From Rheinheimera sp. UJ63 (GTDB taxonomy: Bacteria > Pseudomonadota > Gammaproteobacteria > Enterobacterales > Alteromonadaceae), in NCBI RefSeq assembly GCF_021568285.1, contig NZ_JAKGTQ010000005.1:124001-188000 (forward strand): DNA of 64,000 bases. Direction: 5' to 3'. This document shows positions 20,954-23,141 of the stretch, in pieces (the stretch's first letter is position 1; the number at the start of each line of letters is the position of its first letter). The notes beneath the pieces are model-generated. The model saw only the letters and a list, made by a program, of their open reading frames with translations. It was not told where the DNA came from and did not search any database. Both the position numbers and the translations under genes were made by a program.

Positions 20954-22465
20954 TTATTTCGTGAGCGCAGGGCATTGATAGCAACTTGGAGAGCGAGGGC
21001 AACTACCTCCTCTGGCACAGATTAATTGTGCTGGTTTGCTCATGCTGCGACTAACCCAATTAATATTTAAGATATTGGCTACCCGTTTTAATGTGGTCTG
21101 GATCGACTGCGGCACCACGGCCGCACCACCATATTGCTGACACCGCGCTTTCATATCTTGTGCTAAGGCCGCAGCATCCAGCCCTTGCGCATTAAGCGCG
21201 GGGTTGAGATCAATGCCAGCACACAACACATGCTGATTGCCGGCTAAGTCTTGTACCTTGGTCGATTCGCAACAATAGATCCGTGGCTCACCTTGCACAT
21301 CTAACAGCGATAATTGCGCCGAACTGCCACTGTCTTTAACCTCAAACATGCGAAACACGGCCCAATGCTGGCAAGGGTCGACCACTTGGCGCATATTGCC
21401 CCAAGGCAGAGGGATGCCATTACCACGATACACCGCCTTTAATTTACCGGGGCTGTATGCATCAAAGTAATGCCAATGCGGATAAGGTGACACCGCGGTC
21501 ATGCGGCGCATCGCCACCGAAGCCGATACCTCGGCTTGCAAATGACTGGCAATTTCATAACCACGCCGCTCTAATAATTGCCGAAACGCTTGCTTTGGAC
21601 ACAACAAGGCGCCAGCAAAAAAGCTCGATTCAAAGTCACGCCACGCATGCAAAATATCTTGCGGTGCCATAGTGCTACTATCGGCAAACACATCATCATG
21701 CGCCCCGCCTACCGCCATCGCGTTTTTTACGCCATCTTTGTTATGTAAAACGGCATGGCCAATATGCACAGCTAATTCATACTTTAAGCGAGTAGGCCAC
21801 TGCTGCAAAATACGATTTAAATGTAAGCTATTGGGCGGTACAAAAAAGGAAGTACCAATATTATTAGATTTCACACCTAATTCATCAACGAGCTCGCGTG
21901 GCACTTCATCAAACCACTGAATTTTTAAGCCTAACTGCTGCACTATCGCCATGAGCTCATCGACAGATAAAGGTAGACGTTTTTGCCCTACCTCTTCGGC
22001 GGCACGCTCTAATTCCGGAAAATGATTCTGGTGATGCTCCTGATGCGCCCGAATCAACAGTTGCGCAAACTGCCGACCACTGGTACCAGTTTGTGACAAC
22101 ATTTCTGGGATAGCAATTTGCAAAATATCGGGGCTGAATAAAAAGCTCGGCTCTAATGGCATACCATTAAGGCCACCTTTTGCGGTCTTGGGCAGCACTA
22201 AATCTTGCTCTTCAGCCTCACCGTCTAAAAACCAATCTAAGTCTTTTTGAAAAACCTGCGCGATAACTTCCAGCATTTCGATACTGGGAACCCGTTTACC
22301 ACGCTCGATCATCGATAAATACGATACCGACGGCGCCGACTCAGGATTAACACGCACACAACGTGTCGACAGATCTTCTATCGTTAAGTTATTGCGTTTT
22401 CTCAGGTTTCTAATTTTAGTGCCCAAGAAATGTGATTTTCGGATCAAGCTTTTATTTATTTTCAT
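20954..22465 (-). CDS. HTH-XRE transcriptional regulator of the DUF3612 / short-chain fatty acid regulator type
   Basis: This 503-residue protein has an N-terminal Cro/CI helix-turn-helix (about 10-80, LGTKIRNLRKRNNLTIEDLS and SYLSMIERGKRVPS). A middle region resembles ImmA/IrrE, but its motif is AVHIGHAVLH, so the usual HExxH glutamate is missing. The C-terminal part resembles regulators such as RamB/ScfR. The last 25 residues carry four cysteines spaced C-x5-C-x5-C-x2-C, a possible metal or Fe-S site. I recall the DUF3612 family from Vibrio and Shewanella; the assignment is from memory. It is divergent from the malate-synthase-like gene, with palindromes between them. Confidence 0.8.
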   Translation of the reverse strand: MKINKSLIRKSHFLGTKIRNLRKRNNLTIEDLSTRCVRVNPESAPSVSYLSMIERGKRVPSIEMLEVIAQVFQKDLDWFLDGEAEEQDLVLPKTAKGGLNGMPLEPSFLFSPDILQIAIPEMLSQTGTSGRQFAQLLIRAHQEHHQNHFPELERAAEEVGQKRLPLSVDELMAIVQQLGLKIQWFDEVPRELVDELGVKSNNIGTSFFVPPNSLHLNRILQQWPTRLKYELAVHIGHAVLHNKDGVKNAMAVGGAHDDVFADSSTMAPQDILHAWRDFESSFFAGALLCPKQAFRQLLERRGYEIASHLQAEVSASVAMRRMTAVSPYPHWHYFDAYSPGKLKAVYRGNGIPLPWGNMRQVVDPCQHWAVFRMFEVKDSGSSAQLSLLDVQGEPRIYCCESTKVQDLAGNQHVLCAGIDLNPALNAQGLDAAALAQDMKARCQQYGGAAVVPQSIQTTLKRVANILNINWVSRSMSKPAQLICARGGSCPRSPSCYQCPALTK

Positions 22466-22467
22466 TT

Positions 22468-22504
22468 TGTAAAATTTACACTGTGAAATTTTTATTGTGA
22501 AATT
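22468..22504. promoter_or_regulatory. Candidate operators between the regulator and the malate synthase-like gene
   Basis: A perfect 13-bp palindrome TGTAAAATTTACA (22468-22480) adjoins two direct copies of TGTGAAATT (22482-22490 and 22496-22504). All lie within 40 bases of the regulator start codon. The arrangement suits autoregulation and control of the divergent gene. Confidence 0.55.
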
Positions 22505-22607
22505 ATGCTTAAATTTAATCTAGACTGTTTTTCAAGCGATAGCAAAACTATCTGCAATAAAAGCCTTATCAGAGGCTCCACACTTCGTACCCGATGAGGA
22601 AATAATT

Positions 22608-23102
22608 ATGACGACGTTAGCCACTTCAACACAGCCGATACAAATCGATCACGATATTACGATGATCACGCAACTGAACGACAGCCATGTAAAACAGATC
22701 ATGGATTACTCTAAAGGCTTTTTGGATAAAACCTTTCCTTTGGCTCACGGTTCGCACAAGGCAGTAGCCAGCTATGTCGTATATTACCAACAGTTACTGG
22801 CCTTTTTCGTGGATGGCAGCACCAGTGGCCTAGCGGATCCAGCGCAATTTATTGGCTTAAATGGTCACCGTGAAGCACCTGAGTCGTTGTTACTGCAAAA
22901 CCAAGGTCGCCATGTTGAGTTGATTTTGAATAAAAGTGGCAGCCAAGGTCAGCGTGACCTAGCGGGTATTGATGATATTCAATTACAAACCACCGATCCG
23001 GTATGTCATTGGTTTAGCATGATCACCGGCCGGCAAGTCAGTTGTCGTTGCCGTGGTGATAAAAGCTTCACCGCCAAAGATGGCAGTACTTATCAAATTT
23101 AA
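22608..23102 (+). CDS. Stand-alone malate synthase G insertion-domain protein, non-catalytic
   Basis: This 164-residue protein resembles only the inserted beta domain of malate synthase G. Residues about 39-128 (FLDKTFPLAHGSHKAV, DPAQFIGLNGHREAPE, LLLQNQGRHVELILN) track E. coli GlcB segments FLDESLPLENGSYQDV, TPAQFVGYRGDAAAPT and LLKNNGLHIELQID. The tail DKSFTAKDGSTYQI resembles GlcB DRHYTAADGSEISL, with the intervening catalytic-barrel segment deleted. No TIM barrel or catalytic residues remain, so it cannot be a malate synthase. A regulatory or binding role is inference. A GAGGA ribosome binding site precedes the ATG. Confidence 0.75.
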   Translation: MTTLATSTQPIQIDHDITMITQLNDSHVKQIMDYSKGFLDKTFPLAHGSHKAVASYVVYYQQLLAFFVDGSTSGLADPAQFIGLNGHREAPESLLLQNQGRHVELILNKSGSQGQRDLAGIDDIQLQTTDPVCHWFSMITGRQVSCRCRGDKSFTAKDGSTYQI

Positions 23103-23120
23103 CGCCACATCATGACCAAA

Positions 23121-23141
23121 AGCGCAGCAAATTGCTGCGCT
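23121..23141 (+). terminator. Hairpin after the malate synthase-like gene
   Basis: A strong inverted repeat AGCGCAGCAA / TTGCTGCGCT lies just past the stop codon. The T-tract after it is weak, so termination is likely but unproven. Confidence 0.5.

Follow-up and report, generated by a model that had tools for sequence, protein, structure and literature searches.

Malate synthase G (MSG; GlcB) is represented by the models TIGR01345, PF01274 (the TIM barrel) and PF20658 (MSG_insertion). In trigger enzymes and regulatory pseudoenzymes, a protein derived from an enzyme keeps a non-catalytic role, and what survives in the pseudoenzymes is a dead catalytic fold. Among regulators of the ScfR/IsaR group, PrpR binds both CoA and an Fe-S cluster and the cluster motif of the group is C-X2-C-X4-C (PMC6765138), while RamB binds CoA esters, controls the glyoxylate cycle and in Paracoccus recognizes an operator of two boxes 18 bp apart (PMC10370305), according to the portions of these reports available to us. 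The locus described here, from a 64,000-nucleotide stretch of Rheinheimera DNA (the window), shares features with each of these systems. It encodes the entire MSG insertion domain in the same fold, but the protein lacks the barrel, the N-terminal clasp, the C-terminal plug and the barrel motifs that we looked for, so that, unlike in a pseudoenzyme, only an accessory domain is left. The domain gene is divergent to a DUF3612 regulator that, by its predicted fold, resembles PrpR.

The domain gene (22608..23102, + strand) is an intact frame of 164 codons. A Shine-Dalgarno-like GAGGAA (22596..22601, + strand) can be read six bases ahead of the ATG at 22608, and an intrinsic-terminator-like hairpin (23121..23141, + strand) lies 3′ of the stop codon, where nine pairs are followed by GCGTGTTTCT. 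The hairpin is a match to a consensus, of which there are four in the 64-kb stretch compared to 1.0 in shuffles; with it after the stop codon, the domain gene may be monocistronic. The 5′ leader of the gene contains an inverted repeat, AGCCT-TATCAG-AGGCT (22562-22577), and two Alishewanella loci (L063 and L064) have the string GCCTTATCAGAGGC in their leaders as well, with extra sequence ahead of it in L064. Neighbors between 17621 and 29036 include, by eye, an M13-type peptidase, a PPK2-like kinase, a patatin-like protein, an S8 serine protease and an anmK-like kinase, none of which looks tied to glyoxylate metabolism.

The only Pfam match of the 164-residue product is to PF20658 (76.9 bits, cut-off 24.8, E = 1.4e-21), and a Pfam search finds no match to PF01274. 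As the preliminary description had proposed, the protein follows E. coli GlcB: phmmer aligns it to residues 153-262 of the E. coli enzyme (7yqm, 1d8c; E = 1.6e-15), and a second piece at residues 305-326 is not significant on its own. An AlphaFold model (pLDDT 87.4, pTM 0.78) shows a helix at residues 9-42 followed by a beta-rich domain built from both MSG segments. Its best Foldseek matches in the PDB are malate synthase G structures (5vfb, 1.8e-11; 1p7t, 6.2e-11; 1d8c, 1.8e-10), as are all other matches listed, with 158-177 columns aligned. The TM-scores by query of these alignments are 0.65-0.71 and the rmsd values 5-10 Å, such that the placement of some parts may differ. A chance resemblance to MSG is ruled out by the concurrence of the Pfam, phmmer and Foldseek matches, and the comparison with the GlcB insertion domain proposed earlier as a structural check thus returned the expected fold.

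The barrel motifs DxEDS, GIMDEERRT and NTGFLDRTGDE, which we take to hold the catalytic residues of MSG, are all gaps in the row of the window protein in the MSG alignment, in agreement with the earlier statement that no catalytic residue is kept. That statement was coupled to a jump over a deleted barrel segment. A segment is indeed cut: seven residues lie between the two domain segments (residues 127-135), compared to 27 in all 46 aligned full-length MSGs, where they form a barrel strand carrying the DxEDS-type motif. However, the jump is a small one, and HWFSMITG, which lies just past the shortened strand, is retained. What remains of MSG in this protein is its alpha/beta insertion domain, stripped of catalytic motifs.

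The sequence family is already known, since the 190-position NCBIfam subfamily model NF006511/PRK08951 describes it under the name "malate synthase". The window protein scores 168 bits (cut-off 173, E = 2.1e-49) over profile positions 18-183 of 190, and the model matches all 18 stand-alone or partial proteins of our set A2 (best 8.8e-88). The name given to this same stand-alone family is that of an enzyme activity which its members cannot have and is thus a misnomer; genes so labelled are not the enzyme. In the public records of Pseudoalteromonas xiamenensis and Vibrio parahaemolyticus, the two genes are labelled "DUF3612 domain-containing protein" and "malate synthase"; in V. tritonius, the label beside DUF3612 is "hypothetical protein". 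Open-access text yielded no function for DUF3612, PRK08951 or the stand-alone domain, and combined "trigger enzyme" with malate synthase in Candida work only. VCA0957 may be a V. cholerae member. The available part of one paper lists this gene as blue-light responsive.

The domain gene is not a peculiarity of one strain. The window genome has a single copy and no further MSG match, and the stand-alone form is present in 29 of 30 congeners, divergent to DUF3612. The remaining congener (G020) lacks both genes and keeps a malate synthase barrel, so the module is dispensable. The divergent pair is widespread among aquatic bacteria and was seen in Rheinheimera, Shewanella, Glaciecola, Psychrosphaera and Vibrio. 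Matches to PF20658 occur in 79 and DUF3612 in 44 of the 118 genomes searched, the window's own included; DUF3612 is found in six of 369 genomes drawn from the class (again with the window's own among them) and, among 394 genomes sampled from the order, exceeds its cut-off in 95. All of these 95 carry PF20658, compared to 49 of the other 299, and in those 49 genomes every one of the 53 matches lies in a frame of 573-795 amino acids, none of them stand-alone. The 573-residue frame (G602:C1:4047690) is shorter than other MSGs.

An insertion-domain gene is adjacent and divergent at 79 of the 80 named DUF3612 loci that were retained out of 528; the exception (L101) begins within DUF3612 at a contig edge. 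The pair is present in 20 of the 22 loci listed with all their genes, and the genes around it are mostly different, apart from synteny between close relatives. The 131 loci that were classed comprise 97 S (short), 22 F, 8 I and 4 N, where L192, among the I rows, is a full MSG whose frame is broken. The loci come from two collections, so that some genomes are represented twice (as with L077/L201, L096/L202 and L133/L199) and L001 repeats the window. Extra copies also exist. One genome (G799; L257, L258) has two tandem stand-alone copies by DUF3612, each with its own operator (see below), and a third copy with an operator elsewhere. Six Vibrio-like genomes (L213, L214, L215, L216, L262 and L263) have an extra stand-alone copy with an operator, located between TRAP-type and BCCT-type transporter-like genes (named by eye).

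The divergent DUF3612 regulator (20954..22465, − strand) is a protein of 503 amino acids composed of a helix-turn-helix (HTH), an IrrE-like middle part and DUF3612, and is 63-91% identical to the aligned DUF3612 proteins of other pairs. The N-terminal HTH matches PF01381 (46.4 bits, cut-off 23), and the middle part reaches 18.8 bits with Peptidase_M78 (IrrE-like; PF06114), below the cut-off of 22. Sequence-profile searches of the PDB recover HTH proteins only. Foldseek searches with the model of the protein (pLDDT 70.9, pTM 0.62) return Mycobacterium tuberculosis PrpR as the best match (6cz6, 3.2e-10; 6d2s, 1.2e-8), followed by IrrE. The regulator is like RamB and PrpR in its HTH and effector parts, may share their IrrE-like part and the fold of PrpR, and also has a predicted multi-box operator and, in the full-length form of the locus, glyoxylate-cycle genes. 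Unlike these proteins, it lacks C-X2-C-X4-C and instead carries C483-X5-C489-X5-C495, which is invariant in both alignments made and may be a metal site; for this reason we do not assign DUF3612 to the Fe-S clade. The target also differs, being a fragment of an enzyme.

A shared predicted operator (22465..22504, no strand assigned) abuts the DUF3612 start codon. It was recognized by its conservation and consists of three TGTRAAATT-type boxes in a 14-bp register, whereas the boxes of the Paracoccus RamB operator are two in number and 18 bp apart. The consensus, or a close variant of it, is TTTTGTAAAATT-NACAN-TGTRAAATT-TTTAT-TGTGAAATT, and the matrix match in the window spans 22462-22511 (76.7 bits). 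All 125 intergenic regions (duplicates included) have the operator, 103 with boxes in register and 22 by matrix at 56-70 bits. Of another 37 DUF3612 loci, 35 carry it too, with weak matches in the distant L176-L178; the two misses are a distant relative (L179) and a contig-edge fragment (L180).

A scan of 54 chosen genomes with up to three mismatches uncovered 60 operator sites in 47 genomes, while a reversed control pattern gave none in the same genomes. Each of the 46 DUF3612 genomes has one site at its DUF3612 locus, and 13 more sites, spread over 12 genomes, each lie ahead of an extra stand-alone domain gene. The last site, with three mismatches, lies ahead of a full MSG (L264) in G098, where DUF3612 was not found in a fragmented assembly that is 92% complete; the other seven of the eight scanned genomes without DUF3612 have no site. 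Every one of the 60 sites therefore precedes a gene with the MSG insertion domain. This confinement, as judged from sequence matches in the 54 chosen genomes, is a new finding, and it suggests that the visible targets of DUF3612 are its own gene and insertion-domain genes at a stringency that would miss weaker sites.

Direct control of AceB and isocitrate lyase (ICL) genes by DUF3612 through the same operator is not supported. The best two-box scores ranged from −27.6 to 2.2, the maximum being 42.9, in 17 upstream stretches representing 14 different genes, 9 from DUF3612 genomes, with 50 shuffles each. Two stretches outscore their shuffles: AceB of L032 (2.2 against 0.2), a result that did not recur for the same gene in L221, whose shuffles reached 3.5, and ICL of L221 (−7.7 against −13.4). 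A very degenerate site before AceB or ICL is possible.

Other lineages have a full-length MSG opposite the same regulator and operator, and it is through these linked enzymes that the stand-alone domain is tied to malate synthase G. The linked MSG is followed by ICL in L103 and, by coordinates, likewise in G052, G073, G081 and G105. In the outgroup L178, a DUF3612-like gene is divergent to a gene that looks by eye like isocitrate lyase, followed by MSG, and the operator match is weak (31.9 bits). We infer that the full-length form came first and was truncated later. The E427-type motif is present in 21 and the D455-type motif in all 22 of the DUF3612-linked full MSGs; text patterns for R338 and D631 missed nearly all full-length rows, linked and unlinked, and are uninformative. 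One linked MSG (L192, G663) is split into two frames, one of 445 amino acids and an open frame of 294, through a sequencing error or early decay.

Truncation happened more than once. A regulator tree of 77 of the 131 loci requires eight changes between full-length and other forms, at least three of which are forced by starred branches, and a smaller tree of 58 rows requires four; both are quick searches on rows picked from the 131 loci. A single truncation giving rise to all truncated forms is rejected (p-AU 0.002), while the short forms by themselves are compatible with one clade (p-AU 0.105). Because the single clade is rejected, the barrel must have been lost at least twice, in the Glaciecola group and in the rest. 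Seven proteins of the Glaciecola group (247-403 amino acids) keep additional MSG sequence and lack the three later barrel motifs.

Loss of the barrel is accompanied by the presence of another enzyme. The sole malate synthase barrel of the window genome, at C16, belongs to an AceB-type gene of 533-538 amino acids, with an ICL gene 1.2 kb further. The gene is truncated in 98 of 124 DUF3612 genomes, and all 98 encode a barrel elsewhere. In 20 others the linked MSG is the sole malate synthase barrel (one of these, G663, with the broken frame), and in six it coexists with another. The split between full-length and truncated forms was recomputed from coordinates for 80 genomes with the same result. 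The association is strong (Fisher 4e-18, ignoring kinship), although it is partly expected because a truncated form without another enzyme would leave no shunt at all. Thus, catalysis became redundant and the domain did not: the barrel was lost at least twice with the domain retained, and among the genomes covered only where a further malate synthase is present, which constitutes a second new finding. Some genomes combine the module with an AceB-type malate synthase and others with MSG, and there are two forms of ICL, so the module is not tied to any single enzyme isoform. One congener (G010) has the pair and a malate synthase with no PF00463 match for ICL, which may reflect an assembly gap.

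Conceivably, the domain has nothing to do with glyoxylate metabolism and is a binding protein that the regulator co-opted, such as one carrying an acyl-CoA or an iron-stress signal. The resemblance of DUF3612 to PrpR, described in the accessible text as a binder of CoA and an Fe-S cluster, would suit such a carrier, as would the transporter-like genes (named by eye) that adjoin some extra copies. However, a malate synthase barrel is present in all 124 DUF3612 genomes, and the full-length version of the locus encodes MSG itself, together with ICL in several cases; we regard an unrelated carrier as unlikely. Among the 118 relatives, the 44 DUF3612 genomes likewise all fall within the 93 that have a barrel, and DUF3612 is found in none of the 25 that have none.

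Purifying selection is evident on the domain gene. The median NG86 dN/dS of the domain gene is 0.049 (range 0.008-0.229) in a Rheinheimera/Alishewanella set, from 60 of 630 pairs, and also 0.049 in a mostly Shewanella stand-alone set (L102-L141), from 13 of 630 pairs, where the pairs used have dS of 0.1-1.2 in both genes. The corresponding medians for DUF3612 are 0.033 and 0.022. In 35 domain proteins from several genera, 24 columns are invariant. These values bear on the view of the gene as a decaying MSG remnant whose frame is open by chance. Although the barrel was lost and the Glaciecola-type forms of 247-403 amino acids do resemble partly eroded enzymes, decay is contradicted by the low dN/dS, by the presence of the gene in congeners and several genera and by the loss, on at least two branches, of everything except the insertion domain while the operator was kept. 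This view is highly improbable.

The insertion domain also appears to be under unusual constraint within the full-length enzymes. At equal barrel identity, it is more conserved in the 22 DUF3612-linked full MSGs than in 24 unlinked ones, with identities in the three best-filled bins of 0.562 versus 0.417, 0.583 versus 0.426 (barrel identity 0.65-0.70; 102 linked and 124 unlinked pairs) and 0.602 versus 0.453 (barrel identity 0.70-0.75; 84 and 31 pairs), where the unlinked MSGs are a hand-picked sample, the sequence pairs are non-independent and the linked set may be one MSG branch. Thirteen signature columns (K36, F43, V53, V58, Y59, L64, A65, F67, G74, P78, A83, G111 and Y162) are at least 80% fixed in stand-alone and linked full-length proteins and at most 50% in unlinked MSGs, such that these residues of the stand-alone domain are rare or absent in the latter. 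Stand-alone proteins have lost nine columns that linked and unlinked full MSGs both conserve. Common descent accounts for part of the signature but is a poorer explanation of why conservation is higher when barrel identity is matched. The domain therefore seems, from these comparisons, to have been special already inside the DUF3612-linked enzyme before the barrel was lost. That a full-length MSG opposite the same regulator and operator already carries the stand-alone signature in an unusually conserved domain is a third new finding.

The preliminary description had argued from the compact intact frame, its own ribosome binding site and the divergent regulator that the gene has a selected function and is not decaying, and had named a recent truncation restricted to one strain as the outcome that would overturn this. 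The frame, GAGGAA and DUF3612 gene are all in place, and a search for stand-alone PF20658-like domains and their neighbors extended the arrangement to several genera, with an insertion-domain gene adjoining nearly every named DUF3612 locus. Together with the low dN/dS, the constant pairing, the operator and the repeated loss of the barrel, these results make it very probable that the domain gene is a selected, non-catalytic module of a DUF3612 circuit. The pair looks like a closed circuit of regulator and effector. Sensing or protein binding in acetate/glyoxylate metabolism, the role suggested earlier, would fit the ancestry of the domain and the nature of its regulator. A toxin-antitoxin reading was dropped by reasoning alone.

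The best overall explanation, which we hold to be an even call, is that the domain is the dedicated output of a DUF3612 switch of the acyl-CoA type and acts on the glyoxylate node. In the ancestor, MSG would have been the regulated enzyme of a DUF3612-MSG-ICL locus, and freeing of the insertion domain from MSG would have left a non-catalytic protein. By analogy with PrpR/RamB-type regulators, DUF3612 may sense short-chain acyl-CoA, perhaps with a metal or Fe-S site, and through the predicted operator would control both the domain gene and its own. In the least certain step, the domain as output would act in trans at the glyoxylate node, where it would bind either a protein or a metabolite, as it may have done in cis in the ancestral enzyme. 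A trans-acting effector at this node is a tentative proposal in its own right. So is the broader picture of a PrpR/RamB-type sensor-regulator whose visible regulon is one accessory domain, which would have turned into a regulatory module while still within the DUF3612-linked enzyme and then outlived repeated loss of the barrel as a free effector of that node. To each of the two we would give slightly less than even weight.

A circuit whose sole visible target is the domain gene equally suits feedback on DUF3612. The domain could be a co-regulator that binds DUF3612 or brings its ligand and thereby tunes autoregulation, in which case the ancestral MSG would have been a trigger enzyme touching the regulator via its insertion domain. 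The strict co-occurrence of the two genes, with no stand-alone form in the order genomes that have PF20658 and lack DUF3612, is consistent with this possibility, as are the operators of extra copies distant from DUF3612 and the extra constraint on the domain in linked MSGs. However, a pure feedback pair would lack an output, given that the scan of 54 genomes showed no target of another kind for the operator. An effector of the glyoxylate node is favored, and feedback, its main rival, is the less probable of the two, at perhaps one chance in three in our judgment. The locus as it stands retains an enzyme's accessory domain with its operator and regulator after catalysis passed to another gene, and offers a handle on the role of the MSG insertion domain and on what DUF3612 regulators sense and control. 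If the effector proposal is true, that domain gains a testable role and the locus is a case of an enzyme reduced to a regulatory domain.

Published expression data may already include members of the family. A "malate synthase-related protein" is among the highly expressed genes of a marine metatranscriptome in the available part of that report (PMC7546218), and by this name may belong to the stand-alone family. In V. vulnificus, a "glcB" gene annotated as "malate synthase-related protein" (VV2_1647) increases in expression together with aceA and aceB in stationary-phase cultures in a defined medium, termed iron-limited by the authors, with a protein-level change reported, according to the sections accessible to us (PMC10014275). 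The published VV2_1647 primers encode LGCHKG and LETRTT in one frame. Among 23 loci tested, the best matches of the two primers lie 59 nucleotides apart inside the stand-alone gene in five (L051, L193, L194, L224 and L226), and the pair fits none of the four full-MSG loci. The closest fits are L194 (four and three mismatches) and L224 (four and four), and it appears from these matches that the study measured a stand-alone family member as glcB.
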